The position numbers and the translations under genes are program-made. A stretch of 64,000 nucleotides of DNA from Verrucomicrobiia bacterium (lineage in GTDB: Bacteria; Verrucomicrobiota; Verrucomicrobiia; Limisphaerales; Fontisphaeraceae). The stretch covers positions 1-64,000 of the forward strand of contig JAOAIT010000055.1 of assembly GCA_026414565.1 (NCBI GenBank), in the 5' to 3' direction. Below the pieces are notes generated by a model. It was not told where the DNA came from. It searched no databases and saw only the letters and a list, made by a program, of their open reading frames with translations. Positions 1 to 15,328 of this stretch are shown one piece after another; the first letter of the stretch is position 1; every line of letters starts with the position of its first letter.

Positions 1-1866
1 CACCAACGCGTGGGCATGCCGTCCGAATGGCGCTCCCTGGGCCGCGCCCTCTCTTCCGGCCGCCGCGATCTGCCGGTGTTGGCGGCGGACAAGGCGGGCA
101 ACTTGTACGCGGCCAGTTTTGGCGGGCGCTGGAATGCGCGCCTGAATGGCCAGTGGGTTGGCGAGCAACGCCTGCCCGCGCCGCGGGGGCACAAGCTGGG
201 TTTCGTGGCGCTTGCCACCACGCCGGACGGCCAGGTCTGGGCTTGTTGGGAAGAGGGCGACCAGGTGAATAATGACCAACTGGCCGGAACGTCGGGCTTG
301 TGGCTGATGCCACTCATCGCCCAGGCTGTGCGGCCGGCCGCCGAGGCCCCCCGTCCGGCCGCGCAGCCTGTCCGCCCCGCCACAATGGCGGTGCCGCGCC
401 AGATTCCGCCCCGGGTCAAGCAATGGGACCGTCTGGAGGTGGCGGTGGACGCCAACCGCAATTACCCGGACCCGTTTCGTGATGTTTCGCTCGATGCCAC
501 TTTTACCCGTCCGGATGGCAGCTCGGTGAAGTTCTGGGGGTTTTACGACGGCGGCCAGACGTGGCGACTTCGCTTCATGCCCGACCGCCCGGGCCGGTGG
601 AAGGTGAGCGCCGCTTTTTCTGATGGCGCGCCGGCTTTGCAGGGAGAGTTCGAGTGTGTGGCATCCGACGGCCCGGGGATGATTACCGTACACCAACCCA
701 ACCCCGTCTGGTTTGGTTACCGGGACGGGCCGGCGGTGCTGGTGCGGGGCCTGCATGTGGGCGACCGCTTTTTTGCCCGCAACTTTGCTGATCCACAGCG
801 CGAAGCGTTTCTCGATTGGGTGCAGGCGCATGAATACAACCTGCTTTCAGTGGCCAGTCATTACTTGAATCGCAACGCCCCGGGCCGCGGCCGCGGCTGG
901 CAAACGCCCGCGCTCTGGCCCCTGAATCCGGCCGAGTTTGCCTGGCTGGAAACCCAGCTCGAGGCGCTGGCCCGCCGCCGCATCCTGGTGTATCCCTTCG
1001 CCGGTTTTTTTGGTCGGGATGCCAATTTCCCCCGCTCGCCCCAGGACCAGGCGCTGTACGTGCGCTACACCTATGCCCGCCTGGGGGCTTACTGGAACCT
1101 GTTGTTGAATGTTGCCGGCCCGGAACCATTGCTGCGCGAGCACCCCTACCTGAGCCGCGAGGAGGTCAATCGTCTGGGCGCGCTCATCCAGCAGCATAAC
1201 GTGTTTGGCAAACCGCTCTCGGTGCACAACCGCACGGGCGATGATGAATTTCGTAATGAACCGTGGCTGACTTACGGCACGCTGCAGGGACCGAAGACCG
1301 TCAACCGCGCTCACCTGGCCCGGGGGTTGCTCGAAAGCCATCACCCGGCCAAACCGTTGCTGGCGCAGGAGACGCTGTGGTCCGGCAACACCTATCACAT
1401 CCAGGGCATCAAGCGGGATTATTCGGATGACGACCTCCGCAAAAACACCTTTGTCATCCATTTTTGCGCCGCCGCGCTGGTTTTTGCCGATAATTCAGGC
1501 GATTCCTCCAGCGGGTTTTCCGGCACGCTTGATTTGGCCGCCTGCAAAACGAACCGCCACGCCGCCGTCAAACGCGCCTGGGACCTTTGCGCCGCGCTGC
1601 CCTTTGGCAGCCTGAAGCCGCGCCCGGATTTGGTGAAGGGCGCGCATGCCCATTGTTTGGCCGAGCCGGGGCGCCTGTTCCTGGTGTACTTGGAAACCAG
1701 CCAGCCGGTCACTGTGCGGGTGGGCGACGGCGCGTGGCGTGCCACATGGATTGACACCCGCCCGCCATATCCGCGCCGGGATGGCGGTGTGATGCGCGAT
1801 GACCAGCCGGTAACTCCGCCGCCTGGCGGGGATGATTGGGTGTTGCAATTGGAACCGGCGCCGTAA
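1..1866 (+). CDS. Exported polysaccharide-degrading protein, DUF5060 plus apiosidase-like barrel (5' partial)
   Basis: The frame is open at base 1, so the true start lies outside the window; the GTG at 10 is only the first in-window start codon. The first ~95 visible residues look like a beta-propeller blade pair (AADKAGNLYAASFG and TTPDGQVWACWEEG). An Ala/Pro-rich linker follows, then a DUF5060-like beta-sandwich at about residues 135-220 (RFMPDRPGRWKVSAAF). Next comes a TIM-barrel region of the apiosidase/DUF4038 kind at about 230-530. A GPEP motif follows LLNVA where such barrels carry the first acidic catalytic residue, and LLAQETLWSGN supplies a second candidate Glu. The C-terminal ~80 residues (FLVYLETSQPVTVRV) resemble the small beta domain that ends these proteins. 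The neighbour at 2204 carries the same DUF5060-barrel core, so both probably act on related plant or algal polysaccharides outside the cytoplasm. The exact substrate cannot be read from the sequence. Confidence 0.75.
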   Translation, partial: HQRVGMPSEWRSLGRALSSGRRDLPVLAADKAGNLYAASFGGRWNARLNGQWVGEQRLPAPRGHKLGFVALATTPDGQVWACWEEGDQVNNDQLAGTSGLWLMPLIAQAVRPAAEAPRPAAQPVRPATMAVPRQIPPRVKQWDRLEVAVDANRNYPDPFRDVSLDATFTRPDGSSVKFWGFYDGGQTWRLRFMPDRPGRWKVSAAFSDGAPALQGEFECVASDGPGMITVHQPNPVWFGYRDGPAVLVRGLHVGDRFFARNFADPQREAFLDWVQAHEYNLLSVASHYLNRNAPGRGRGWQTPALWPLNPAEFAWLETQLEALARRRILVYPFAGFFGRDANFPRSPQDQALYVRYTYARLGAYWNLLLNVAGPEPLLREHPYLSREEVNRLGALIQQHNVFGKPLSVHNRTGDDEFRNEPWLTYGTLQGPKTVNRAHLARGLLESHHPAKPLLAQETLWSGNTYHIQGIKRDYSDDDLRKNTFVIHFCAAALVFADNSGDSSSGFSGTLDLAACKTNRHAAVKRAWDLCAALPFGSLKPRPDLVKGAHAHCLAEPGRLFLVYLETSQPVTVRVGDGAWRATWIDTRPPYPRRDGGVMRDDQPVTPPPGGDDWVLQLEPAP

Positions 1867-2203
1867 GGACCGGGATGAACTCCAAGGGCTGGAACCTTCT
1901 GGCCGCATATTCCGCACTCAGAAGTGACTCCTGGATGGACTTGGCGCGCCCCGCGTCCGCCCGCGTGGCGACAGCGGCCATGACGGCTTCGAGCGGGCGG
2001 CCGCGGCAAGGGAGGCAACCTCAGTGGGGCGGCAAAAAGACTTGCCGTGGGGGGGGGGGAATCGGAGAAGGTTTTCCTCAGTTGTGACACCATGAAAAAT
2101 CCCGCTGGCCGTGGCACTGAAGGCGCTGCCGGGCAGCGGATGTTCCCATAGGGGCGATTTCTTGTCAGCTCCATGAAGAAATGACCTTTAGCAGCTCACT
2201 GCC
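1867..2203. other. Intergenic gap (337 bp) with a G11 tract
   Basis: No convincing gene is seen between the two DUF5060 genes. The notable element is a run of eleven G at 2049-2059. No clear intrinsic terminator or strong promoter consensus is visible. The last 100 bases before 2204 are less GC-rich and could hold a promoter that I cannot pin down. Confidence 0.5.
2049..2059. repeat. Homopolymeric G11 tract
   Basis: Eleven consecutive G residues lie about 145 bp upstream of the start at 2204, in non-coding sequence. Tracts of this length are prone to slipped-strand change. Placed upstream of a secreted enzyme gene, it could alter promoter or leader spacing, but no promoter is recognised next to it. 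Confidence 0.9.
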
Positions 2204-5200
2204 ATGAACTTGATCCCATTTCCCCCTCGTTATTTATGGCCGTTCTTCATGCTTTGGGCTGGTTGCGGCACTCTGGCCGCCGCCGTCACCCCGCCCACCG
2301 AGGGCCGCCAGCCCGCCCGCTGGCGGGCGGAAACCACCGACTGGCAGGCGGCCACCAATCTGGTCATCGGCGATTGGGGTTTCAATCGCCCCGGTTACCC
2401 GGAGGGACTGTACATTCACGGCATCACCCGGCCCGCTGGCGAGCCTGTCACCAATCCGGTGATCTACGACAACGACGTGTATGACGATGTCTTTGACGAC
2501 GAGCTGGCGTACGTGATGGCCAGCGAGGGCGAGATGAACCTCGTGGCGCTCATCGTCACGCCGGTGCTGACGGATTTCTGGGGCTTTTCCAAACCGGGCT
2601 GGATCCAAACCGCGCATGATTCGCGCCGCAACGCCGAATTAAGCGGCTTGCGAATGGAGCGCATCCCGCCGATCACCGTGGGCACCGAGGCGCCCAACGA
2701 AAAGGCGGGTGAAAACAAGGATTCGGCGGGCGCGCGGTTGTACGTGCGGCTCATCAACGAGCACTTTGCGCGTGATCCGCAGCGGCCCGTCATCGTCAAC
2801 ATCGGCGGGCAGGGCGCCACGCTGGCCTCGGCGTACGGGCTGGACCCGTCCATCGCGCACAAGTGCATCGTGTATTACACCGATCTGCGGGTTTATAACG
2901 GGCATTACCAGTGGGCCTCCAAACTGATCGCCGCTCACTTCCGCGTGGTGAGCTGGGGCGACGACAACTGGTGGATTACCAAGCCGGCGCAGAACCAGTG
3001 GCGTGTGCTGCCGCGCCCGGAGAAGGCCGAGGGCCGGGAAAACGACGCCCGCAGCGGCGAGTGGCGACAACTGACGGAACTGCGCGTGCCGCTGCTGGAT
3101 CATATCGTCAAACAATTCCAGACCCGCGGCGAATATTGTCAGGGCCCCAAAAAAGCTGATGGTTATCTGGACGGCACCTTTTTGCATGCCTGGCTGCCGG
3201 GCATTTTCAGTGGCGCGGCGTTGCGGGAGATTCGCGGGGGGCAGGTGTTGCACGTGACCCGGTTCACCGAGGTGAACGAAGCGCGCGTCAAAGCCTTCGC
3301 CAACGCCCGTCTGCTCAACGCTCAGGCCTACCGGCGCGCCGCCGACCCAGGCGGCGTGTCATCCTCGGGGATTTCCCCGTCGCCAGCCCGGCAACTGCGG
3401 GCCGCGTTGTCCACCAATACGGTGGAGGTCTATGACTTTGTGGAAATCACGCTGCGGCCGGAGCCACCCATCAGCGGCAACCCATTCACCAATGCAGTCG
3501 TGGAAGGAGAGTTCATGCCGGCCAAAGGCGGCGCCGCGGTAAAAGTGGACGGCTTCTGCGACAGCCAGGATGGCAGCGTGTATCGCCTCCGCTTCATGCC
3601 GTCCCAACCGGGCGAATATCGCTACAAGGTCACGCTGCGCCACGGAGATCAGACGCTGGCGCACGAGGGGGCGTTCAACGCCCGGCGCGCCAATCGCCGT
3701 GGCATCCTGCGCGTGGACCCGAAATATCCGAATCATTTCCTCTGGGAAGGCACCGGCGAGCATTACTTTTGGAACGGCACCACCACCTACTACTTGATGG
3801 GTTGGCAGGACGACGCGGTCATCCGCCAGGCCATTGACCGCCTGGCCGCCTGCAAGATTAACCGCCTGCGCGTGCTGGTTTATGGCCGCAATGGCGACCG
3901 CCCCTGGAACCAGCCGGTCAGGTCCACCGCCGGCTTCAAGCTGTACTTAAATCCCTGGCTCGCCGCGCGGCCGGACGACGTGCAGAATCCCGGCTTCGAC
4001 CTTGCCCGCTTCAACGTCGAGTATTGGCAGAAGTTTGAACGCATGCTGCGGTACGCCCGCGAGCGGGATGTCATTATCTCGGTGATATTTTTTATCGGTT
4101 ATCAGGTCCTGCCCACCCCCTTTGCGGCGTACAGCGAGGACGAACAGCGGTACTACCGTTACGGCGTGGCGCGGCTGGCGGCCTTCAGCAATGTGACGTG
4201 GGACCTGGGCAATGAGCACGATGCCCATCGCGAAGTGCCCAAGTGGTGCGACTGGCTGGGGCCGCTGGTCAAACAATGGGACCCCTACGATCATCTGTTG
4301 TCCGCGCACAACAAGATTTACCGCACGCCCGGCCAGACCTGGAACGACATGCAACTGATCCAGCGCTGGGATGCCGGTCAGAATGCCTTTCTGCTGGGGG
4401 AGCGCGCCAGGCAGGCGGCCACCGGCCGCATCATCCCGCAAATCAATGAGGAATACGGCTATGAAGACTTGTGGGAAAAGCAGCCCGGTGAACGCAACGC
4501 CGATTCCCGCCGCCGGTGCGCGTGGGAAATTGCCATGGCGGGGTGTTACCAAACCACCGGTGAGACCGCCAACCGCGGCACCGGTTTTCCCCCGGACACC
4601 GGCGGCGGCTGGGTCAACGGGCGCGGCGATGACACCATGACCCTGTTGCGCGGCCACGTGCATCTGGTGGACTTTTTTACCGCCTTCGACTGGTGGCGCG
4701 CCGAGCCGCGCAATGATTTGGTCCAGCCCCCGGCCTTGTGCTTGGCGGAGACGGGCGAGGTTTATGCGGTGTATCTGCCACGCTCGGCCCGCGTGAAAAT
4801 CACCCTCCAAGGCCCCCTGAGTTATCGCGCCCGCTGGTTCAATCCCCGCACCGGCGAGTGGCTGAAACAGCCCGATGCCAGCGGGCCGGTCTGGGAGACC
4901 CCGGAACCGCCCGGCGAAGGGGACTGGGCGCTGCTGTTGACGCGGTTTGACTGGACCACGCGCGAGTGGAAAAGCTACCTGAATCACGACGGCCTCCAGT
5001 TCAACAACAATCGCTGGGCGGGCGAAAAAGGCTCCCTGCGGGTCCGCTTCGGGCCGCCCACGGCCAGTTGGTGGACCACGCACAATGGCAACCGCTGGGA
5101 TTTTCCGGTGTCGGCCCCGTGGGTGGGAGTGGGCAGCGACTGGGGCAATATCTCCACCAATTCGCCTTTTCCCATCAGGCTGAGCGAGCTGGAAGTGCTG

Positions 5201-5704
5201 AAAGCCTCTCTCTCGGCGACTGTGCCGTTGGGCAAGACCAACCAAATGTTCAAAATCTATTGGCAGCTTTATTTCTCCGACCAGCCCCAGGGCAAATTCA
5301 ACCGGGGCGATTTCGCGCCGACGGTCTATGGCGTCAACATCCCCTCCAACCATTGGGGCACCGTGCGCGGCCGCACGGTGGTGGACGGACGGACCTGGCG
5401 CTTTGCCGACCAGGGAACCAGCTCCGGCATGGGGCGCTTCATCATCCCGATGTTGGAACCGCCATTGACGCCCGATGACAATGGGGTGGTGGAAATCCGC
5501 AACGTGGACATCAAAGCCCTCATTGACTGGTGCATCGCCCAGGGCTTCTACCGCGCTGAAGATTACTGCCTGGTCATCCTCGCCGGTTGGGAAGTCTGGG
5601 TGCAGAACGACATCCTGCGCATGAACGACATGGCCTTCACCATCAAACAAAAGAACAAACCGGCGGTGACTATTCCCGCTTGGACCACCATGATGGACCC
5701 ATGA
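2204..5704 (+). CDS. Large exported multidomain carbohydrate-active protein (nucleoside-hydrolase-like, DUF5060, apiosidase-like barrel, GH12-like C-terminus)
   Basis: 1166 residues. The ATG start is followed by a hydrophobic export signal ending near LWAGC, an imperfect lipobox with W at -3, so lipidation is possible. Residues ~45-330 resemble a nucleoside-hydrolase-like fold: an Asp-rich segment (NDVYDDVFDDE), then a typical IVNIGGQGATLASA stretch. Residues ~395-475 are DUF5060-like (RFMPSQPGEYRYKVTL). Residues ~485-800 form an apiosidase/cellulase-type barrel with WDLGNEH (Glu671) and INEEYGYE (Glu749/750) as candidate catalytic acids. A small beta domain follows at ~820-890. The last ~260 residues (FNNNRWAG ... 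LAGWEVW, Glu1130 ... MNDMAFTI) have the layout of a GH12 jelly roll, but the usual first catalytic Glu (EIMIW) is not apparent. The stop overlaps the next gene by ATGA, implying translational coupling. Domain calls come from reading motifs, not from a search. Confidence 0.75.
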   Translation: MNLIPFPPRYLWPFFMLWAGCGTLAAAVTPPTEGRQPARWRAETTDWQAATNLVIGDWGFNRPGYPEGLYIHGITRPAGEPVTNPVIYDNDVYDDVFDDELAYVMASEGEMNLVALIVTPVLTDFWGFSKPGWIQTAHDSRRNAELSGLRMERIPPITVGTEAPNEKAGENKDSAGARLYVRLINEHFARDPQRPVIVNIGGQGATLASAYGLDPSIAHKCIVYYTDLRVYNGHYQWASKLIAAHFRVVSWGDDNWWITKPAQNQWRVLPRPEKAEGRENDARSGEWRQLTELRVPLLDHIVKQFQTRGEYCQGPKKADGYLDGTFLHAWLPGIFSGAALREIRGGQVLHVTRFTEVNEARVKAFANARLLNAQAYRRAADPGGVSSSGISPSPARQLRAALSTNTVEVYDFVEITLRPEPPISGNPFTNAVVEGEFMPAKGGAAVKVDGFCDSQDGSVYRLRFMPSQPGEYRYKVTLRHGDQTLAHEGAFNARRANRRGILRVDPKYPNHFLWEGTGEHYFWNGTTTYYLMGWQDDAVIRQAIDRLAACKINRLRVLVYGRNGDRPWNQPVRSTAGFKLYLNPWLAARPDDVQNPGFDLARFNVEYWQKFERMLRYARERDVIISVIFFIGYQVLPTPFAAYSEDEQRYYRYGVARLAAFSNVTWDLGNEHDAHREVPKWCDWLGPLVKQWDPYDHLLSAHNKIYRTPGQTWNDMQLIQRWDAGQNAFLLGERARQAATGRIIPQINEEYGYEDLWEKQPGERNADSRRRCAWEIAMAGCYQTTGETANRGTGFPPDTGGGWVNGRGDDTMTLLRGHVHLVDFFTAFDWWRAEPRNDLVQPPALCLAETGEVYAVYLPRSARVKITLQGPLSYRARWFNPRTGEWLKQPDASGPVWETPEPPGEGDWALLLTRFDWTTREWKSYLNHDGLQFNNNRWAGEKGSLRVRFGPPTASWWTTHNGNRWDFPVSAPWVGVGSDWGNISTNSPFPIRLSELEVLKASLSATVPLGKTNQMFKIYWQLYFSDQPQGKFNRGDFAPTVYGVNIPSNHWGTVRGRTVVDGRTWRFADQGTSSGMGRFIIPMLEPPLTPDDNGVVEIRNVDIKALIDWCIAQGFYRAEDYCLVILAGWEVWVQNDILRMNDMAFTIKQKNKPAVTIPAWTTMMDP

Positions 5705-7155
5705 TCCGGAAATATAACCACACCAGAATTCCACACCTGCTGGCCATGACAAAAGCGTGCAACCCCGGCGCCCTCCTCTCTGTGCTCCTGGCCGCCAGCC
5801 TGGCGGCAGCGGAGAAACCGCGTTGCGTGGTGGTCAGCGATATGACTCACGACGACGGCAACTCGCTGATCCGCATGTTGTATTACGCCAACGAGCTGGA
5901 TCTTGAAGCGATCACCATCGCGCCCCAGGAGCCGGACCACCGGTGGAACTCCGACGCCCCTTGGAAAAAAGTGCAGGCGATTTTAGACGCCTACGCCAAA
6001 GTCTATGACCGGCTCAAGGCGCACGACCCGGCCTATCCCACCCCCGAATACTTACGCCGCATCACCAAACGCGGCCACGGCGCCCTGCCAATCATCTGGC
6101 TGACCAAGGGCCATAAAGTGGACGACTGGATCGGTGAAGGCCGCACGCCCAACGGCCAGCCCAAGGACTCCGAGGCTTCAGACTTTTTGGTCGAAGTGCT
6201 GCTGCGCGACAATCCTCGCCCCTTGTACGTCGGTCTGTGGGGCGCGCCTCTGGTTTTTTCGCAGGCGCTGTACTGCCTGCAAAGCCGGCAGCCGGCGGAG
6301 CGGGTGGCGCAAATCATGGCCAAAGTGCATGTCTATTCCATCCACTTGCAGGACATCACCATGGATTACTTCTTTGACCTTCCCCGCTGGCAGGCCACGC
6401 CGCCGGGCAAAATCCAGGATTTTGCCTGGACGCCGTGGAGCGGCCCCCGCTTTCTTCACCCGCCGGCGCGGCTGCTGGTGGACATCAATCATTTCTGGTT
6501 TTACATTGGCGAGTCCCAGGCCATCACGGCGCAGGTGCCCGAGCATGGCCCGCTGGCCGCGCTCTATGACCGCGGCGGCGAAGGGGACACCCCGGCCTTC
6601 CTCTTTTTGCTGAGTGCCAATCTGGGCCTGAACGACCCCTGGGATCCCACCCAAGGTTCGTGGGGCGGCCGTTTCACACCGGGCAAAGGTGACGGCCAGC
6701 CGTGGCCCAATGTCTTCTCGACCGCGCGCGTGCGCGACCGCGAGCTGAAACGCTGGGCGCCCGACGTGCGCGCCAGTTTCCTGGCCCGTCTCCAGTACAC
6801 CATCAAACCGCCCGGCGAGGTCAACCACCCGCCCAGAGTGGTGTTGAATGGGGACCGCTCGGCCAAGGTTTTACGGCTGGCGGCCAGGCCCGGGCAAACC
6901 TTGACGCTGGATGCCGCCGGCACCGCCGACCCTGACGGCAACGAACTGACCTATAAATGGTGGCACTATCAGGAGACGGGCACCTACTCCAAACCGCTCA
7001 AGCTCCCGGAGGCGCATCAGCCGGTGTTGCGCTGGACGGCGCCCGATGACTTGGGCGACCAAACGGTGCATCTCGTGCTCGAGGTGCGCGATAACGGCAG
7101 CCCGTCCCTGGTGGCATATCGCCGGGTTATCCTGACCGGCACGCCCGCCCCGTAA
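5701..7155 (+). CDS. Sde182-type (DUF1593) nucleoside-hydrolase-like exported protein
   Basis: 484 residues from the ATG at 5701, which overlaps the previous stop (ATGA). An in-frame ATG at 5746 gives a shorter, more classical signal peptide (MTKACNPGALLSVLLAASLA) and may be the used start. The mature protein opens with CVVVSDMTHDDGNSL then RMLYYANELDLEAI, the signature region of the cellulose-binding Sde182 nucleoside-hydrolase-like family, with Asp residues where hydrolases bind calcium. Residues ~375-484 match the family's C-terminal beta domain (DAAGTADPDGNELTYKWW). Family members are usually encoded with polysaccharide-degrading enzymes; the substrate is not settled. Coupling to the 2204 gene, which carries its own nucleoside-hydrolase-like N-terminus, argues that both act on the same glycan or glycoside. 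No terminator is evident before the unrelated gene at 7363. Confidence 0.8.
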   Translation: MIRKYNHTRIPHLLAMTKACNPGALLSVLLAASLAAAEKPRCVVVSDMTHDDGNSLIRMLYYANELDLEAITIAPQEPDHRWNSDAPWKKVQAILDAYAKVYDRLKAHDPAYPTPEYLRRITKRGHGALPIIWLTKGHKVDDWIGEGRTPNGQPKDSEASDFLVEVLLRDNPRPLYVGLWGAPLVFSQALYCLQSRQPAERVAQIMAKVHVYSIHLQDITMDYFFDLPRWQATPPGKIQDFAWTPWSGPRFLHPPARLLVDINHFWFYIGESQAITAQVPEHGPLAALYDRGGEGDTPAFLFLLSANLGLNDPWDPTQGSWGGRFTPGKGDGQPWPNVFSTARVRDRELKRWAPDVRASFLARLQYTIKPPGEVNHPPRVVLNGDRSAKVLRLAARPGQTLTLDAAGTADPDGNELTYKWWHYQETGTYSKPLKLPEAHQPVLRWTAPDDLGDQTVHLVLEVRDNGSPSLVAYRRVILTGTPAP

Positions 7156-7342
7156 GGCGCGCACCCCGCCAGTGCCCGCCCCGCACCCCCGGCCCCCCGC
7201 CAATGCGCAACGCCCAGCTCCCCGGCCAGTGCCCCCCAAACCTCACCGGCAGGCGTTTGGTTTCGATGGGCTTGATGACGCCATGTTCACTGGGCTGCGT
7301 CGTGGCGGAAAAGTTTTGGGTGAAGAAGCGTGCGGGATTCGC

Positions 7343-7348
7343 TATACT
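7343..7348 (+). promoter_or_regulatory. Candidate -10 element for the GHKL-helicase gene
   Basis: TATACT lies 14 bp before the ATG at 7363. That would give a very short leader, and no Shine-Dalgarno is seen. No -35 with normal spacing is present (TTGGGT is 21 bp upstream). The call is weak. Confidence 0.25.
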
Positions 7349-7362
7349 TCGCGCGTGAATCC

Positions 7363-10300
7363 ATGGAACTAACTGTCAACCGACTACGGGAGAGCACCCT
7401 TAAAGCTTACGAGGCGCGTCCGGCACTCCTGCGTGAACATTATGGAATCGAACAGGTGGTACTGGCCGGTGGCTATGGATATCGGCAGGTGATGGAGCTT
7501 GTCCAGAATGGAGCTGACGCTGTTTTAGAGGCTTGCGAGCAGGGAAATTCCTTGTCCTCCGGCAATATTGTACAGGTGATCCTTCGCGGCTCACGACTTT
7601 ACGTTGCCAACACAGGCGCCCCTCTTAGTGAGGAAGGCATCGATGCTCTGATGAGTTCCCATTCTTCCCCCAAGCGTGGCAATCAGATTGGCCGGTTTGG
7701 ACTCGGCTTCAAGTCATTGCTCCGGCTGGGTGGATGCATAGATTTATTCACCCGTTCCTGTGGGGCTGTGCGATTCGATCCAGAGCGGTGTCGGCGTGAG
7801 TTGCGGGAAAGGTTTGGTGTGACCGAAGTCCCGGGGTTGCGGCTGGCATGGTCGCTCGATGAATCAGAGCGGGCTGCTGACCCATTGCTGGCAGACTTGG
7901 CCTGGGCCGAAACCATCGTGCGTGCCGAGATCAAGACGGCCGACATGGAGGCCCACTTACGGCAGGAGATCAGTGCCTTCCCGGCGGAGTTTCTGCTCTT
8001 TCTGCCCGTCTCCCTGGTTTTAGAGTTGGATGACGGAGAAAAGCCGCCTCGAACAATTTGTGCTAAGCCTAATGGCGTTCGCCGTATTCTTCGCATCGGG
8101 GCGGAAGAGTCGCTTTGGCAGGTCGTTTGCCGCGAAGTGGCCATTACCGACGTGCGCGCCCGTGCCGACGCAACCCACATTCACGCCCGCGAGAAAGTTC
8201 CGGTGGCTTGGGCTGTGCCGCTGGATGCGAAGCGGGAGGAAGCCGGACGTTTCTGGGCGTTCTTCCCGACGCACACCCCAACTTACTTGCCGGGCATTGT
8301 TAATGCGCCGTGGAAGCTGAACAGTGATCGGAATGCGATTATTGGCGGGGAGTGGAACTCGGCGCTAATGTATGAAGCGGCCCGGCTTATTGTGGAGACG
8401 TTACCCACACTTTCCACGCCTGAAGATCCGGGGCGGCCTCTGGATGCTTTCCCACGTCAGCTGGCGCGTACGGATGAGGATGCAGCTCCACTGGTCGAGG
8501 CAGTCTGGAAGGCATTGGAAAGCGCCGCCGCCGTGCCCAATGCGGCTGGGAAGCTAAGGCCAGCGCTCAAGTTGTGGCGCCATCCACTGGACGATGCCGA
8601 CATTGCCAACCAGTGGCAGAGGCTCGCCAAGAATGAGCAAAAGACCGAACTGGTTCATCCTTCCTGTTATGAGCGCCAGCGGGGCAGTCGGCTAAATGCC
8701 TTGGCGGAGCGGCTGGCCGCGCGCGGAACTCAAACCCCGCACGAACCAGTTCTGCGTAAACAGGCGCCTTCTGCGTGGTTTGCAGCGGTGGCTTCTACTG
8801 AGCTGGCCCGGGCAGTCGAGGTTTTAAAGCTCGCCGCAGCCTATGCAGATCACTGCTTGCCCTGGGAATGGAGTTCTCAGGTTCGGCCTACACTAGCAAT
8901 CATCTTGACGGACCGGGGGAAGCTGGTGACGGCCAACCAGGCGGTGTTCGCCCCGGAAGGCACGCGTGTGCCGGATGGCCGACATCCCGTTGCCCGCGTG
9001 TTATGTGAACAGGCCGAGGCGAGGCGGATTATAACCGAGGTGATGAAAGTCAAACCGCTGGACGAAAGCGTGTGGCTTGACGTCCTTCGGGAGGCGTTAC
9101 GCGGAATCCCCGATTCCCCTGCCGACAGCCAGGACAAAGGATGGTTGGCATTCTGGAACCTACTCAGAAAAGCTCCCCCGGGGGTAGCTCAAGAATTCAT
9201 CACTGAGAATGGCAGCCAAGTCCAGGTCAGGCGAAACGACGGCCAATGGGTTCCGCAAGATGAAGTGCTGCTTCCAGGGGAACTGGTCAGCGCGGAGGAG
9301 AGCTCATCAAATAAGAATGTCCTTGTTGATCCGGCTGTGCACGCTACTGATATCGAGTTGTTGAAACGCTTAGGGGTATCGGACTTTCCAAAGGGGAAGG
9401 TTACTGTTCGAGACTGCTTGGCCTTAGACAATTGGCTCCGGCATTGGCGCGCTTACTACCGCCGCCATGTGGATGGACGGGCACGCTGGGATTACCTAAA
9501 GCCGTCAAGGTTTGAGTTTCCAAAAGGCTGGCTTTTCCTTCCGAAATTGATCGGCCCAGCTCGAGCAAAGCTGACCGCATACTTTATTGATCAGCTTGGC
9601 GGGGGCGAGTTCCCGGAGAGCGTACAATTCGGGCACTCCAGTGTACGAAGCTACCCTGAGATTCACGTTCCGCATCCTTTGCCTTGGTTTTTGCTGCAAC
9701 ACGGGGTAGTGCAAGTGGGCGACTACATAGTATGTCTTGCGGCGATCCTCGCGCGGCGGCATGAGCCTGCACTGGCCAAACTGCCCGTCTGGACGCAACT
9801 AAAGCTAGCGCTCGAAAAACACGACGGTGTTGAGCCGCAGGTGCGGGCAACTGAGAAGGAAATTCAGGCGCTGTGGCACGCGTTGATAAAGCTGCTGGCC
9901 ACGGACGGGGCAGTTGCGGACGACTCGCTGCAAGCTCTTTGGAGCGGTGCGGCAAAGGATGGCATAGTTCCCGAAACGCTCCCTAGTGCGACAGGCGCAA
10001 TTCCCTTGTCCCAAGTTTTTGTAAGCGGGTCGCCTGACCTTGCTCGTCGCGCTCGCACGAACGGTCGCATCGTGGTCACGCTGGATAATGAAACGCTGCA
10101 GCTCTGGTTAAACAAAGGAGCGCAGAACCTGGAAAGCTTAATGTTCCCTGAGTGGACGCAGCAGATCGGCCCGGCAGCGCTGCTTGTTTTCACCGTGCCT
10201 GAGCTTGCCGAAGTCATGCAGTCTGAGGTGAAGGATACCGCCCGCTGCCAGCCAGTAGCAGGGCTGAAGCTGAACATCGCTGGCCAGGCCGAGCCTGTGC

Positions 10301-12063
10301 CATGCCTTATGTGGCAAAATTGCTTGTTCCTCGATTTGGCTGAGCTGTCCAAGTGGTCAAGGGCCGAACGGCTTAGGCACCTGTTAGCCGAGGTTGCACC
10401 TGCTGGCTGGTTGATGTACACCCCGGAAGAAGCGTTGCGAATTTTAGGGGATGCACAGGTTGACGCGCTGCGCGCAAGGGTGGCTGGAGGCAACACGCTC
10501 GCCGAGCGATTGCTGTTGGCCGTTGGAAACCGGCGCGAACCGCTAGAAAAAGCTCTTGGTGGTTTGGCCGGAATGGAATTCATCCGGCAGTGCCAGCCGC
10601 TGCAACTTGCCGAATTGATCCTTGCACAACTCGGTCCGGCCACGCTTGTCACTCTGAAAGACGCATTGAAGGACGAAGGATTGAAACCCCCATCACGGTG
10701 GAACTCAGCCGAAGCCCGTGCCTTCGTTGCCAGCATCGGTTTTCCAGAGGAATTCGCCGCTTCAGCTGAAGGGCGACGCGAGCCGGAGGAGATAATCAGT
10801 GGACCGATTGATTTGCCGCCTCTCCACGATTTTCAGGAAGAAATCCTGGCTGGCATCAAGACCTTGCTCAAGTCCAATCAAGGTCGTCGCCGCGCCGTGA
10901 TCAGCCTGCCAACAGGCGGCGGCAAAACACGGGTAACAGTCGAGGCCGCAGTGTTGCTGGTGCTCAAACCCGAAGGGGAACAACGCAGTGTGCTGTGGGT
11001 CGCGCAGACAGATGAACTCTGCGAGCAGGCGGTGCAGGCATTTCGACAAGTCTGGATCAATCTCGGAGCGCAGCGGACTAACTTGCGGATCATCCGTTTT
11101 TGGGGCGGACACCCAGACCCCGCGGCTTACGAGCCGGGCAAACCAGTCGTCGTAATTGCCTCCATTCAAACCCTGCAAAACCGAATGGGGGGGACCAATT
11201 TAGAGTGGCTGCAAAAGCCCGGCCTCGTCGTGGTGGACGAGTGCCACCATGCCATCACACCCAGTTATACAAACCTGCTTCGATGGCTGGATGCAGAAGC
11301 TCCACGTTTCGGACAGCCGCCAAAAGAAGAGCCGCCGATTCTGGGCTTGAGCGCGACACCATTTCGAACGGACGATGAGGAAAGCCGGCGCCTCGCCCGC
11401 CGTTTCGACCAGCGCTGGCTTCCGCCAGACCAGCAAAACCTGCACCGGAAATTGCTTGTCCAAGGTGTTCTGGCCAAGGTCATAGCAGAACCGCTCGACT
11501 CGGGCGTCGCCGTGTCTGAAGACCTTCTCGACGAGTTGATGTCACTGCTTGACAGTGGCGGGGGCCCTGATTTCGAAAGGCAGCTGGAAAATATAAACCA
11601 ATCCCTCGCCCGAAACGAGCAGCGCAACGAACGCCTTGTCGCACGGATCAAGAGCGCCGAAGAAAAGTCCATCCTTTTCTTCGCCAATTCAGTGCTTCAC
11701 GCAGAAGAGATGTCCGCCCGCCTGAATCTGGAGCGTATTCCAGCAGCGGCGGTGAGTGGTAAAACAGCGCCCGCGGCCCGGCGTTACTTCCTTGAACGTT
11801 ACCAACGCGGCGAAATCCGCGTGCTCTGCAATCACACGGTTCTCAGCACCGGCTTTGATGCACCGAAGACCGACATGATCCTTATTGCCCGGCAGGTCTT
11901 CAGCCCTGTTCGCTACATGCAGATGGTGGGGCGTGGGCTGCGTGGCCCGAAAAACGGTGGCACGGAAACTTGCCGGATCGTGACCGTCTTGGACAACTTG
12001 GGCCGATTCCAAGACCGCCATCCCTACCACTACTGCCAGCGATATTTTTCGACTAATATGTAG
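7363..12063 (+). CDS. Sacsin/NOV-type GHKL ATPase fused to SF2 (DEAD/DEAH) helicase; candidate defence protein
   Basis: 1566 residues from ATG 7363; an in-frame GTG at 7330 would add 11. The N-terminus is a Bergerat-fold GHKL ATPase of the sacsin/NOV kind: N-box ELVQNGADA (Glu45, Asn49), ANTGAPLSEEGI as the ATP-lid G1 motif (from ~82), and GRFGLGFKS (110-118). FFPTHTPTYLPGIVNAPWK (~310-330) resembles the following Hsp90-like middle segment. Residues ~400-1130 show no family I recognise. The C-terminus is an SF2 helicase: PTGGGKT Walker A (1183-1189), DECHH motif II (1292-1296), GLSATPFRTD motif III (from 1328), and QMVGRGLRG motif VI with Arg1524/1527 as likely arginine fingers. The protein ends ~35 residues after motif VI, leaving little room for another domain. 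The gene is less GC-rich and uses more varied third bases than its neighbours, which suggests transfer. It stands alone between polysaccharide and regulatory genes. Helicases paired with GHKL ATPases occur among anti-phage systems; defence is an inference. Confidence 0.85.
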   Translation: MELTVNRLRESTLKAYEARPALLREHYGIEQVVLAGGYGYRQVMELVQNGADAVLEACEQGNSLSSGNIVQVILRGSRLYVANTGAPLSEEGIDALMSSHSSPKRGNQIGRFGLGFKSLLRLGGCIDLFTRSCGAVRFDPERCRRELRERFGVTEVPGLRLAWSLDESERAADPLLADLAWAETIVRAEIKTADMEAHLRQEISAFPAEFLLFLPVSLVLELDDGEKPPRTICAKPNGVRRILRIGAEESLWQVVCREVAITDVRARADATHIHAREKVPVAWAVPLDAKREEAGRFWAFFPTHTPTYLPGIVNAPWKLNSDRNAIIGGEWNSALMYEAARLIVETLPTLSTPEDPGRPLDAFPRQLARTDEDAAPLVEAVWKALESAAAVPNAAGKLRPALKLWRHPLDDADIANQWQRLAKNEQKTELVHPSCYERQRGSRLNALAERLAARGTQTPHEPVLRKQAPSAWFAAVASTELARAVEVLKLAAAYADHCLPWEWSSQVRPTLAIILTDRGKLVTANQAVFAPEGTRVPDGRHPVARVLCEQAEARRIITEVMKVKPLDESVWLDVLREALRGIPDSPADSQDKGWLAFWNLLRKAPPGVAQEFITENGSQVQVRRNDGQWVPQDEVLLPGELVSAEESSSNKNVLVDPAVHATDIELLKRLGVSDFPKGKVTVRDCLALDNWLRHWRAYYRRHVDGRARWDYLKPSRFEFPKGWLFLPKLIGPARAKLTAYFIDQLGGGEFPESVQFGHSSVRSYPEIHVPHPLPWFLLQHGVVQVGDYIVCLAAILARRHEPALAKLPVWTQLKLALEKHDGVEPQVRATEKEIQALWHALIKLLATDGAVADDSLQALWSGAAKDGIVPETLPSATGAIPLSQVFVSGSPDLARRARTNGRIVVTLDNETLQLWLNKGAQNLESLMFPEWTQQIGPAALLVFTVPELAEVMQSEVKDTARCQPVAGLKLNIAGQAEPVPCLMWQNCLFLDLAELSKWSRAERLRHLLAEVAPAGWLMYTPEEALRILGDAQVDALRARVAGGNTLAERLLLAVGNRREPLEKALGGLAGMEFIRQCQPLQLAELILAQLGPATLVTLKDALKDEGLKPPSRWNSAEARAFVASIGFPEEFAASAEGRREPEEIISGPIDLPPLHDFQEEILAGIKTLLKSNQGRRRAVISLPTGGGKTRVTVEAAVLLVLKPEGEQRSVLWVAQTDELCEQAVQAFRQVWINLGAQRTNLRIIRFWGGHPDPAAYEPGKPVVVIASIQTLQNRMGGTNLEWLQKPGLVVVDECHHAITPSYTNLLRWLDAEAPRFGQPPKEEPPILGLSATPFRTDDEESRRLARRFDQRWLPPDQQNLHRKLLVQGVLAKVIAEPLDSGVAVSEDLLDELMSLLDSGGGPDFERQLENINQSLARNEQRNERLVARIKSAEEKSILFFANSVLHAEEMSARLNLERIPAAAVSGKTAPAARRYFLERYQRGEIRVLCNHTVLSTGFDAPKTDMILIARQVFSPVRYMQMVGRGLRGPKNGGTETCRIVTVLDNLGRFQDRHPYHYCQRYFSTNM

Positions 12064-12431
12064 TCTCTGTCTCCTGATGCACACCCTGGTGAAATACGCA
12101 GAGGAATCTCCCAGGCGTTTATCTGGCGGCTGGCACAAGATGGCCGTTGCATTTGCTCAGTGAGACTGTGCCGGACGTTGGGCTGGCGTTGGCGTCGCTC
12201 ATTGGCGATCAGTCCTTTACAATGGCCTCAAAGCTAATGATTGCGTGTTGCGCCTGATGCGCTCGGAGGCCGTGCCAGCCGGATTCATCAGCATTGTCTT
12301 GGGCCAGTTGCAAGCGGCAGGAGGGAGGGTGTTCAGGCGGGCGGCGGGAGGGGAAGGTGGGGGGTGTGGACCTCGTATGGGGTGATTTTGCACTTGAGAC
12401 TCAGTCTCATTTGTCTTAGGTTGTCGCGGCT
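12064..12431. other. Intergenic gap (368 bp) between helicase and AraC-family gene
   Basis: I see no gene or intact mobile element. The first 180 bp are mixed composition. The stretch around 12310-12370 is purine-rich with short G runs. The 3' end carries the Fur-like palindrome at 12395-12409 and the likely promoter of the AraC-family gene. No intrinsic terminator for the helicase gene is apparent. Confidence 0.5.
12395..12409. promoter_or_regulatory. Perfect 7-1-7 palindrome, Fur-box-like operator
   Basis: TGAGACTCAGTCTCA is an exact inverted repeat around a central C, 23 bp upstream of the AraC-family start. It fits the 7-1-7 architecture of Fur sites (TGATAAT-n-ATTATCA), with outer TGA/TCA and several inner positions matching. 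TTGAGA at 12394-12399 and TAGGTT at 12417-12422 (17 bp apart) could be -35 and -10, which would put the operator inside the promoter. Confidence 0.55.
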
Positions 12432-13436
12432 ATGGGCGAGCGCCCGTGTTCATCCGCCGCGTCGTGTCCGGTCGAGCAACCGGATGGTCCCGCCATTTGC
12501 CCCCTGGCGGGGGCGGCAGATTCGGCATGCCCCCCGGGCGGCGCCGCGCGGCCGGACAGCAGCGGAGGCCGGGATTTCCGGGTGCAGTGGCATGAGGTCT
12601 GTCCGCCGCGTTCCTTGGCGTATCAGCCGGCGGTTTTTCCGGAAAGTGTGGCCATCTGTCTGAATTTGGCGGGCCACGGCAAAATCTGCGCCGCGGACGG
12701 CGAGGCGGTGCAACTGGAGCCGGGCACGGCGGCTTTTTACGGGCGGCGCCGTGGTGAGCTGCACGCGGAGCGGGCCGGCGCCCAGCGGCATCAGTTCATC
12801 ACCCTGGAGCTTTCCCTGGCGTTTTTGAGGCGACAAAAAAAGGACAACCCTCCCTGGCATTCGGCGGTGCAGCGGCTGCTGGCGGGGCGGACCCGCCTGA
12901 CCCTGTCCGACCCTGTGGCCTTCACGCCGGCGCATCGTTTGTTGATTGGCACTTTGCGGCATCCGCCTCCGGTGGCCCAGGTGTGCCGGCTCTGGTACCA
13001 GGCCAAGGCGCTGGAGGCGGCGAGCCTTTTTTTGGTGGCGCCCGGCCCCGCAGAACCCTGCCCGGATGAGCAGGCGGCATCCCGCCTGCAACGCCTCAAT
13101 CAGGAGCGCGCGCTGGCCGTGGCGGCCTACTTGCGCGAGCATCTGGCGGAGCCGCTGACCCTGGAGCAAATTGGCCGGGCGGTGGGGGTCAGCCCCTGCT
13201 ATTTGAGCCGCATTTTTGCGCAGGCCATGGGGTGCGGCATTTTTCAATACCTGCGCGATTTGCGCCTGGATCGCGCCGCCGAATTGCTGCGGCAGGGCCG
13301 GGGCAATGTCACCGAGGCCGCCTTCTCGGTGGGGTACTCCAGCTTGAGCCATTTCAGCCAGGCATTTCGCGAGCGGTTTGGTTGCTGCCCGGGGTTGTAT
13401 CCGCTCCAGACGCCCGCCCAGAAACCCCGGTCCTGA
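12432..13436 (+). CDS. AraC-family transcriptional regulator, probably iron-responsive
   Basis: 334 residues. The C-terminal ~100 residues are a two-helix-turn-helix AraC domain: helix LTLEQIGRAVGVSPCYLSRI, then FQYLRDLRLDRAAELL and the second HTH VTEAAFSVGYSSLSHFSQAF, ending RERFGCCPGLYP in place of the usual G-x-sP-x-xYR. The N-terminal ~220 residues form the effector/dimerisation part (SVAICLNLAGHGKICA, then VQLEPGTAAFYG), in the style of PchR-like siderophore regulators. The first ~45 residues are low-complexity and the start has no clear Shine-Dalgarno, so translation could begin later. A Fur-like palindrome just upstream and a PepSY membrane protein downstream fit a role in iron acquisition; ligand and targets are inferred. 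Confidence 0.8.
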   Translation: MGERPCSSAASCPVEQPDGPAICPLAGAADSACPPGGAARPDSSGGRDFRVQWHEVCPPRSLAYQPAVFPESVAICLNLAGHGKICAADGEAVQLEPGTAAFYGRRRGELHAERAGAQRHQFITLELSLAFLRRQKKDNPPWHSAVQRLLAGRTRLTLSDPVAFTPAHRLLIGTLRHPPPVAQVCRLWYQAKALEAASLFLVAPGPAEPCPDEQAASRLQRLNQERALAVAAYLREHLAEPLTLEQIGRAVGVSPCYLSRIFAQAMGCGIFQYLRDLRLDRAAELLRQGRGNVTEAAFSVGYSSLSHFSQAFRERFGCCPGLYPLQTPAQKPRS

Positions 13437-13593
13437 GCCGGTTGATTTTAGCCGTTTAAGTTGAGGAGGATCTTTTCGTCTCGTCTCATCCCGCCCGGCG
13501 CTTGTCGCGAGCGGCGCAAGAACGCAAGGGGCCGACAAAGAAACGCAAGCGGCCGTTAGCGCGCGGGCGGGGGCATGGCGTATCAAGGAGGGC

Positions 13594-14310
13594 ATGAGGA
13601 ACAACCTGAAAACCTCGGTCGGCCGCCCCGCCGGATGGTGGAAGGCGGGATTCACCTTGATTGAGTTGCTGGTGGTGATGGCGATCATCGCCCTGCTGGC
13701 CAGCCTGCTTTTGCCGGCGTTGAGCAGCGCCCGCGAACGGGCGCGGCGTACCAACTGCGTTTCCAACCTGCGGCAGGTCTATCTGGCCATGGCCATGTAC
13801 GCCCAGGATAACGAAGATTCCATGCCGGTAAAATATGAGGTCAAAAAGACTTCCCTCAAGGCGGAGGACGTGGCCAAGGGCAAGGAACTGCAGACGCTGG
13901 AAAATGGCATTCACCTCCTGCTGGCGCCGTATCTGGGCAGCAACGGCCGGCCGCCTTCGCGGGTGTTTCGGTGCCCGTCGGATCACGGCGACGCCACCGA
14001 TGCCACGCCGGTTTTTGAGCGGCGCGGCACCAGCTACCAGGTGGAGGGGGTGGACACCGGCCGGAAACCGCAGGACCTCTATAAAAACCGTTTCTCCGCC
14101 CGCGGCACCATGGATATGGCCTTTGATTTGTTCAAACCGTGGGACTCGGACGATCCCCGGAAGGTGCAGGAGAAAATTAGCAAAGGCGAACTGGGGCCGG
14201 TCAAATGGCATGCCAAAGTTTTCAACAAGGTCATGGGCGACGGCCGCGTGATTACCATCGCCTCGAAGGAGCAGGACAAAGAGTCCAAGGGCGAAACCAA
14301 GGACGACTGA
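13594..14310 (+). CDS. Type II secretion-like pseudopilin, DUF1559/SBP_bac_10 type
   Basis: 238 residues. A basic leader precedes the prepilin cleavage motif [14 protein letters not shown], followed by a hydrophobic helix ([18 protein letters not shown]) and [20 protein letters not shown]. Near the C-terminus is H-x9-DG ([15 protein letters not shown]), the hallmark of the DUF1559 pseudopilins expanded in planctomycetes and verrucomicrobia. The protein is presumably processed by prepilin peptidase and anchored in the inner membrane; its cargo or surface role is unknown. AAGGAGG lies only 2 bases before the ATG, unusually close, but no better in-frame start is visible. It has no neighbouring secretion genes, as is common for this family. 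Confidence 0.85.
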
Positions 14311-14366
14311 TACGTTGGATGGTGGAGAATCAAGCGCCTCAATTATTAACTCGATTTCCTAAACGT

Positions 14367-15122
14367 ATGAATCCTTCCCCTACTCCCACGGTAAAGCCCA
14401 AAAACTGGCTCTTGCTTCAATCGCGCGTCTGGCACCGCTGGGCGGGTGTCATTGCGGCCTTGTTTCTGGTGGTGGTCAGCCTTACCGGCATAGTGCTGAA
14501 TTACAAAAAGCCCATTTTTCAGACCCTGGGTTTGGAACCAGCGCCCCTCGCCGGGGACAAGGAGAAAACGTCCTCCTCCGCCAAATCTGCAGGCGAACCG
14601 CGCCAGGCGAGCCATTTGCAGACGTTGCCAGTCTCGATGGCCCAGGCGTTGGCCGTGGCGCGGGAGCAGTGGGGCGACGCCCCCCTGGAGCGCGTGGAGC
14701 TGAAGCTGGAGCAGGGCGAGTGGCTTTATAAAATCAAGCGCCAGGGCGGGGCGGAAATCTGGATCTCTGCCGCCACAGGCGCGCACTTCAGCAAAGGCGC
14801 GTATGAAAAAGCGCGCCGTGCGCCCGATGGCACAGCCATCAAGAGCTTCGACTGGGGCAAGTTCGTGCTGGATTTGCACACCGGCAAAATCGGCGGGCCG
14901 GTGGGGGTGGCCGTGATGACCGGTGTGGCCGGGGTGCTGTTTTTTCTGACGCTTTCCGGGCTTTACCTGTGGCTGAAGCCCCTCCTGTTGCGGCGGGCCA
15001 ATGCCGCCGCGCGCCCAAGCCCCGCCGTGGCGGAGGGCCAAGCCAGAGGCGCTCTCCAAACCGGTGTGGCGCGCGCCCCAACGCCCGCCACGGCCGCACG
15101 CCATGGGGCCGGGACATCGTAA
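14367..15122 (+). CDS. PepSY-associated inner-membrane protein
   Basis: 251 residues from ATG 14367. The first transmembrane segment at about residues 23-47 (HRWAGVIAALFLVVVSLTGI) carries the W-H-R-W-x-G opening typical of PepSY_TM proteins. A periplasmic PepSY-like region (LAVAREQWGDAPLERVELK, then GEWLYKIKRQGGAEIWISA) follows. An LHTGKIGG motif precedes a final membrane pair near residues 175-210 (VAVMTGVAGVLFFLTLSGLYLWL). The C-terminal ~40 residues are Ala/Pro/Arg-rich. Relatives include FpvG-like periplasmic reductases used in ferrisiderophore iron release. This copy is shorter than the four-helix versions, so whether it binds haem or acts in reduction is uncertain. The AraC gene with a Fur-like site 2 kb upstream supports a link to iron. 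Confidence 0.75.
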   Translation: MNPSPTPTVKPKNWLLLQSRVWHRWAGVIAALFLVVVSLTGIVLNYKKPIFQTLGLEPAPLAGDKEKTSSSAKSAGEPRQASHLQTLPVSMAQALAVAREQWGDAPLERVELKLEQGEWLYKIKRQGGAEIWISAATGAHFSKGAYEKARRAPDGTAIKSFDWGKFVLDLHTGKIGGPVGVAVMTGVAGVLFFLTLSGLYLWLKPLLLRRANAAARPSPAVAEGQARGALQTGVARAPTPATAARHGAGTS

Positions 15123-15202
15123 CCATCTTTACATAGCCATTTGGGCAGTTAAACGTTTGTTCAGGCACTTGCGCTTGTCTTATTCCCGGCGGCGCAGGCG
15201 CG

Positions 15203-15219
15203 GAAAGGAGGTGAACCAG
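15203..15219 (+). other. Near-perfect complement of the 16S rRNA 3' tail
   Basis: GAAAGGAGGTGAACCAG matches the complement of the conserved bacterial 16S 3' end (GAAAGGAGGTGATCCAG) with one mismatch in 17. No start codon sits at normal spacing; GTG at 15211 directly abuts GGAG and opens only a 12-codon frame ending at 15249. It lies 110 bp before the serine palmitoyltransferase start. It could be a ribosome standby site in that gene's leader, or chance. Confidence 0.5.
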
Positions 15220-15328
15220 GAGGCTCAGGCTCCTATCTGCGCCCCCTGAGGGGGGGCGGGGAGGGGGTACAGCCAATAATTTTGATTGAATAAATAACCT
15301 TAACTTGCGACACAAAAGGCCGGCTAAT

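Follow-up and report, generated by a model that had tools for sequence, protein, structure and literature searches.

A TmtA-related fusion of a GHKL ATPase and an SF2 helicase, probably a defence gene, in a Verrucomicrobiia genome and across eight phyla

The window, a stretch of 64,000 nucleotides from a Verrucomicrobiia genome, carries a gene whose product joins a GHKL ATPase of the TmtA/sacsin type, a repeat scaffold and an SF2 DNA motor of the RadD/SauUSI/HsdR type in one polypeptide. The gene probably arrived by horizontal transfer and probably defends against phages or other foreign DNA, and its homologues form a family of the same design. The family has this architecture, both of its ATP sites are conserved, its spread across phyla is patchy, and it is repeatedly associated with R-M and DISARM-type genes. 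The label of defence gene is strongly supported by this genomic context, as far as sequence can tell. The fusion is most likely an unnamed relative of TmtA, with a helicase in place of a nuclease-like tail. The features of the window are as follows.

7363 to 12063, plus strand: whole gene, a fusion of sacsin/TmtA-like GHKL ATPase, repeat middle and SF2 helicase (1566 aa)
7411 to 8517, plus strand: GHKL ATPase and S5-like middle domain, residues about 17-385, from profile and structural matches
8518 to 10812, plus strand: middle scaffold of repeated helix/beta-hairpin units, residues about 386-1150, from the secondary-structure pattern of the model
10822 to 11997, plus strand: SF2 helicase/translocase core, residues 1154-1545, with Walker A, DECH, SATP and motif VI
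15275, no strand: end of synteny with the same-genus genome G244, which is syntenic from this position rightwards only

The open reading frame starts with ATG at 7363, ends with a stop at 12063 and has no internal stops; an in-frame GTG alternative lies at 7330. The GHKL part contains the motifs E45-x3-N49, N83-x-G85 and G110-x2-G113-x-G115, including ELVQNGADA at residues 45-53 and GRFGLGFKS at 110-118. The helicase part contains PTGGGKT (1183-1189), DECHH (1292-1296), SATP (1330-1333) and QMVGRGLRG (1520-1528), and forms the C-terminal end of the protein with no domain after it. Pfam profiles place the SF2 helicase at 1154-1527 (ResIII 1.6e-19, Helicase_C 2.5e-11), and the NCBIfam sacsin N-terminal ATP-binding domain matches residues 41-122 at 3.7e-15, exceeding its cut-off. 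The single GHKL/SF2 chain of 1566 residues and all the motifs quoted in the first-pass annotation are thus borne out by reading frame, profiles and models. Motif II of the GHKL domain reads N83-T-G85 (window 7609-7617). The position of N83 is that of the adenine-binding Asp in Hsp90, and it is an Asn in 85% of the 68 members of the family. The nucleotide specificity of the GHKL domain may differ.

AlphaFold2 models were built as two overlapping halves, residues 1-1160 and 375-1566, from alignments of 42 sequences, with mean pLDDT of 87.6 and 87.0, respectively. The N-terminal fold is that of Hsp90/sacsin and the C-terminal fold that of RadD/XPB/DEAD-box proteins. Residues 17-385 superpose on TRAP1/Hsp90 (Z 15.5, 286 aligned, 4.6 Å) and on human sacsin SR1 (Z 13.7, 182 aligned, 3.3 Å), and also on TopoVI-B and GyrB. 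A sequence search of the PDB with the 1-1160 profile gives sacsin/Hsp90 matches only, over about residues 44-131. DbpA, XPB, FANCM, RIG-I and RadD all match the C-terminal 420 residues in structure with Z of about 21-24, DEAD-box and RIG-I/MDA5 helicases scoring about equally. The Foldseek list for this half is headed by RadD and SauUSI. By sequence, the nearest solved helicase is RadD (7e-16), and further relatives are SauUSI (7clg, a 953-residue 'putative helicase' entry), an HsdR and XPB. SauUSI, HsdR and RadD therefore provide the closest solved helicase cores to the SF2 part; in contrast to them, the fusion has no nuclease or specificity domain and its helicase is terminal.

The middle region was hardly probed by the structural searches, which were mostly drawn to the GHKL and SF2 domains. 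Its first three units are related in register by profile similarity (P about 1e-4 each), and the remaining units have weak, suggestive similarity only. Residues 535-1150 match no nuclease family in Pfam, PADLOC or NCBIfam. The conserved polar residues of the middle (H432, R440, D656, H660, D663, C962, D991) are scattered. A nuclease hidden in the middle was considered and rejected, as no conserved catalytic set is present among 68 sequences and the few conserved polar residues are unlike a metal-nuclease site. The earlier statement that the protein has no nuclease motif is supported, and none is conserved among the 68 aligned sequences.

The best PADLOC family for the window protein is TmtA (2.2e-41); the match covers only residues 4-534 of the protein and, in the model of 1538 positions, positions 12-519. 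Profile-profile comparison aligns residues 3-411 to TmtA-type proteins with a probability of 99.9. Past residue 411 no homology is found: for residues 375-1566, hhalign gives a probability of 0.3 against two proteins of the TmtA type. These two proteins from Verrucomicrobiota (L100:6254-10480, which lies among conjugation-like genes, and L101:7190-11161) carry NOV_C (PF13020) at the C-terminus and lack a helicase; the comparison of tails uses them, as members of the same phylum, in place of the experimentally tested TmtA. Their NOV_C tail presumably adopts a PD-(D/E)xK-like fold. No NOV_C is found in the window protein, where the SF2 helicase stands instead. The fusion is thus similar to Tiamat (TmtA) in its homologous N-terminal 411 residues, its single gene and its length, and differs from it in the C-terminal module. 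Plain Tiamat identity was rejected for the window protein on these grounds. Since the TmtA match is limited to the N-terminal half, annotation pipelines may nevertheless call the fusion Tiamat.

A 2023 survey lists Tiamat among the systems of unknown mechanism (PMC10482375), and the literature searched holds no established mechanism for Tiamat-type proteins. The search, which covered the fusion and Tiamat together with its domains and did not include the original Tiamat paper, returned nothing on the fusion. The protein had been proposed as undescribed; this stands for the fusion itself as far as the searched literature goes, but not for its N-terminal 411 residues, which belong to the TmtA superfamily. 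Another comparable protein is VcSduA (Shedu type I-D), a GHKL ATPase with a PD-(D/E)xK nuclease that acts in one-gene direct defence (PMC12137116). Both proteins have an N-terminal GHKL ATPase and a DNA-acting C-terminal module in one chain, whereas the C-terminal part of the window protein is an SF2 motor and not a nuclease. DUF4263, the Shedu nuclease domain, has no Pfam match in the window protein up to E = 1.

The family comprises 66 distinct near-full-length homologues from eight phyla. A scan of one genome per species gives 80 loci, and in most of them the whole fusion is a single frame. Among 68 aligned rows, the catalytic positions are kept at 97-100%: E45 and N49 at 0.97, K1188, D1292 and E1293 at 1.00, R1524 and R1527 at 0.99, and D52 within that range. 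The dN/dS ratio is about 0.11-0.20 in four pairs, and 0.12 between the window gene and L103. The tree of the family has three clades. Clade I includes the window copy and spans Pseudomonadota, Verrucomicrobiota, Planctomycetota, Myxococcota and Armatimonadota; clade II consists of 38 Actinomycetota and one Chloroflexota; clade III contains Chloroflexota, Acidobacteriota, Acidimicrobiia and others. The sister of the window copy is a Myxococcota copy with 63% identity and a support of 96. In the class of the window organism, the fusion is present in 5 of 384 genomes (about 1.3%), in one case only as a fragment, and another class of Verrucomicrobiota has one additional copy. Phage records contain stand-alone helicases that match but no fusion, and plasmid records contain partial relatives only.

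Several variants of the gene occur. The copy at L103:7353-12131 (genome G031), which is 72% identical to the window gene, has one in-frame TGA near residue 139; therefore, either loss of function is tolerated or the stop is a bin or assembly error. Second, partial copies of the fusion gene lie beside the full-length one at L070:9938-15831 and L047:3-14575. The Arthrobacter plasmid p2MP (L012:8443-17386) has a gene for a 1096-aa protein that matches the N-terminal residues 13-399 of the fusion. Its companions are genes for a 5mC methyltransferase, an ATP-binding protein, a PD-(D/E)XK protein and a Z1 protein, and the set is possibly a helicase-free split version of the fusion.

The strongest contextual evidence comes from clade II. 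Neighbour figures for all clades are raw counts per locus, and the neighbour genes were predicted with an in-house ORF caller that had been trained on codon usage and may be wrong about some small genes. A DrmA-like helicase lies within 10 kb of the fusion in 38 of the 39 clade II loci, a UvrD- or NERD-type helicase is the next gene in 33, a 5mC methyltransferase is present in 33, DrmB in 31 and Vsr in 20. The order fusion, UvrD/NERD, DrmA and DrmB is uninterrupted in two-thirds of the loci (26 of 39). For a representative operon, PADLOC identifies DrmA (PDLC02575, 1e-238) and DrmB (PDLC02583, 2e-70); its methyltransferase is nearest to DruM2/type II methyltransferases and matches DrmMII at 6e-41. 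In 81 further clade II neighbour proteins, DrmC falls outside the 25 commonest families, which leaves at most a few. The link of clade II to defence genes speaks for itself through the recurrence of this operon in divergent genera and is strongly supported. A divergent set of a PDC-M33A-like HTH gene, a gene for a protein of unknown type and a DUF6339 gene occurs at L049:4915-8911 and its clade II equivalents (23-26 of 39 loci), and may have a regulatory role or form another system in its own right.

Similar to DISARM, the clade II operons encode a DrmA-like protein, a DrmB-like protein and a 5mC methyltransferase. In contrast to DISARM, they have the additional fusion and the UvrD- or NERD-type helicase. 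DrmC, a PLD nuclease that DISARM loci often lack, does not appear among the recurrent neighbours identified. DISARM can dispense with this nuclease, and for DrmAB a physical blockade of the DNA has been put forward (PMC9142583). ARMADA, BRIGADE and TALON are YprA-family systems, of which ARMADA has BrxHII-like and PglX-like genes as its defining members (PMC12458937). The clade II loci resemble these systems as multi-helicase operons with a YprA/DrmA-type helicase, and their UvrD-type helicase has a counterpart in the GajB-like UvrD helicase of ARMADA II (PMC12458937). BrxHII-like and PglX-like genes are absent from the recurrent clade II clusters B-L and from the 25 commonest further families. 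The YprA survey points to numerous DISARM-like classes that are still uncharacterised, and the terms sacsin, GHKL and Hsp90 do not occur in its main text (PMC12458937).

In clades I and III, the association with R-M and defence genes is suggestive. The fusion lies between hsdM and hsdS in three clade I loci (L017, L031 and L014), together with one further gene in L031 and L014, and the hsdS frame overlaps it by 4 bases in L017 and L031. It adjoins the PADLOC candidate PDC-S68 in L014 and L071, accompanies a type III methyltransferase and a ResIII protein in L018, lies upstream of a PLD and SNF2 pair in L103, and is divergent from a UvrD-DrmA-DrmB-NERD row in L033. On a contig from a viral collection (L126:123-12635, clade I), it adjoins an IS transposase gene and a type I R-M locus, in a row that also includes a Ser/Thr kinase and a metalloprotease-like gene. 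The clade III copies include one beside HsdR and an HsdM/S fusion (L040) and one beside a GmrSD-Schlafen protein (L091). In several phyla the fusion stands alone, with no partner that can be recognised (L019, L024, L025, L027, L028 and L039), and solitary copies adjoin ordinary genes such as alaS, rsmB, T2SSF, GDH and PALP. The solitary copies of clade I are located at sites unrelated to one another. At L023:9281-9983, a HEPN-domain gene and a small upstream gene lie directly 5' of the fusion and are possibly a toxin-antitoxin pair.

The first-pass annotation had described a single gene with no partner. This is true of the window copy, which is solitary, but not of the family, since clade II and several clade I copies belong to operons, of the R-M kind in clade I. 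The proposed association with defence is upheld at the level of the family by the repeated R-M and DISARM-type context in sequenced loci. A consistent housekeeping neighbourhood in all relatives, which would have spoken against it, was looked for and not found.

The three genes nearest to the window gene encode an apiosidase-like protein, a Sde182-like protein and AraC. In contrast to DISARM, the window gene has none of the partners DrmA, DrmB and methyltransferase among these three, and the translations read in the left part of the window include no recognisable defence gene. The contig starts 7.4 kb upstream of the gene, which bounds the left neighbourhood. The complete same-genus genome G244 lacks the fusion gene, and positions 1-15275, fusion included, are not at the matching place there, being either rearranged or absent. 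The AraC and prepilin/PepSY genes of the window are located elsewhere in G244. The left end of the contig (1-15275) is a variable segment beside the EF-Tu/rpoBC block. The GC3 of the fusion gene is 0.62 compared with 0.79-0.90 in eleven other window genes. Its absence from G244, the broken synteny and the low GC3 together fit an acquisition of the window copy by horizontal transfer.

Three observations count against the defence reading. The neighbours of the window gene and of several solitary copies are ordinary genes, the nearest solved helicase, RadD, is a repair protein, and the G031 copy has its in-frame TGA. The first two would suit a role in genome maintenance, in which a repair helicase akin to RadD, joined to an ATPase clamp of the MutL/Hsp90 kind, serves as an accessory repair factor; RadD is nearest by sequence and first in Foldseek, and the solitary copies sit beside ordinary chromosomal genes. 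However, the window protein scores 99.8 bits against the 720-bit cut-off of the RadD equivalog in NCBIfam, the gene is present in about 1% of the genomes of the class and missing from the same-genus genome, and R-M/DISARM neighbours recur, so this role is quite improbable. A still more remote proposal is a nucleic-acid sensor for abortive infection, whose helicase recognises phage RNA or DNA ends like RIG-I/MDA5 and whose GHKL domain signals to a host effector or activates it. The superposition of the SF2 core on DEAD-box and RIG-I/MDA5 helicases about equally well and the lack of a conserved nuclease in the chain agree with such a sensor, but this fold similarity has no discriminating power, the sequence relatives (RadD, SauUSI, HsdR, XPB) are DNA motors, and the clade II partners are DNA methyltransferases and DNA helicases.

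In the alternative closest to the favoured reading, the fusion serves R-M and DISARM-like systems as an accessory subunit or as a regulator and is no autonomous defence, with solitary copies that depend on systems elsewhere or are orphans nearing loss. A subunit would agree with the fixed order in which the clade II fusion, UvrD, DrmA and DrmB follow each other and with the coupling to hsdS by a 4-base frame overlap in L017 and L031, and an orphan with the in-frame stop of the G031 copy. Partnerless copies in several phyla, however, and an intact window copy with conserved catalytic residues argue against dependence on partners, and the dN/dS of the pair of window gene and L103 speaks against long-standing decay. 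This alternative is accordingly held to be unlikely, and a defence gene in its own right is preferred.

For such a defence gene, the following mode of action is proposed. By analogy with Hsp90, GyrB and TopoVI-B, the GHKL domains would dimerise upon ATP binding and so function as a clamp or gate. A feature of foreign DNA or a phage component may be sensed by the ATPase together with the repeat scaffold, and closure would license the SF2 motor to translocate on DNA. Translocation would then block replication or transcription, or expose the DNA to other nucleases. DNA is the presumed substrate because the closest sequence relatives and the partners are DNA enzymes; by fold comparison alone, DNA and RNA motors are inseparable. 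In clade II, DrmA-DrmB and the UvrD-type helicase may add motor activity, and the 5mC methyltransferases may mark self and non-self. The window protein would act alone or with host nucleases.

A more specific version of this proposal, given about an even chance, is that of an unnamed defence family with two lifestyles. One is the solitary, nuclease-free, GHKL-gated SF2 translocase of the window type, and the other is the first subunit of an undescribed DISARM-like multi-motor machine of actinomycetes. At the same level of confidence, and jointly with the two lifestyles, this machine would consist of the GHKL-SF2 fusion, a UvrD-type helicase, DrmA-DrmB, one or two 5mC methyltransferases and often a Vsr endonuclease.

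The findings bear on more than the window organism. Calls of 'Tiamat' that rely on the N-terminal ATPase alone may bring unlike proteins together under one name. The clade II operons would widen the DISARM-like class by a conserved GHKL-helicase subunit that is absent from the main text of the YprA survey (PMC12458937). If the proposal of two lifestyles is correct, the exchange of the C-terminal module, NOV_C or SF2, on a sensor-type N-terminal half would be a design principle of the superfamily, and the retention of the GHKL half with a tail swapped for a DNA motor would hint at which half senses and which half acts.
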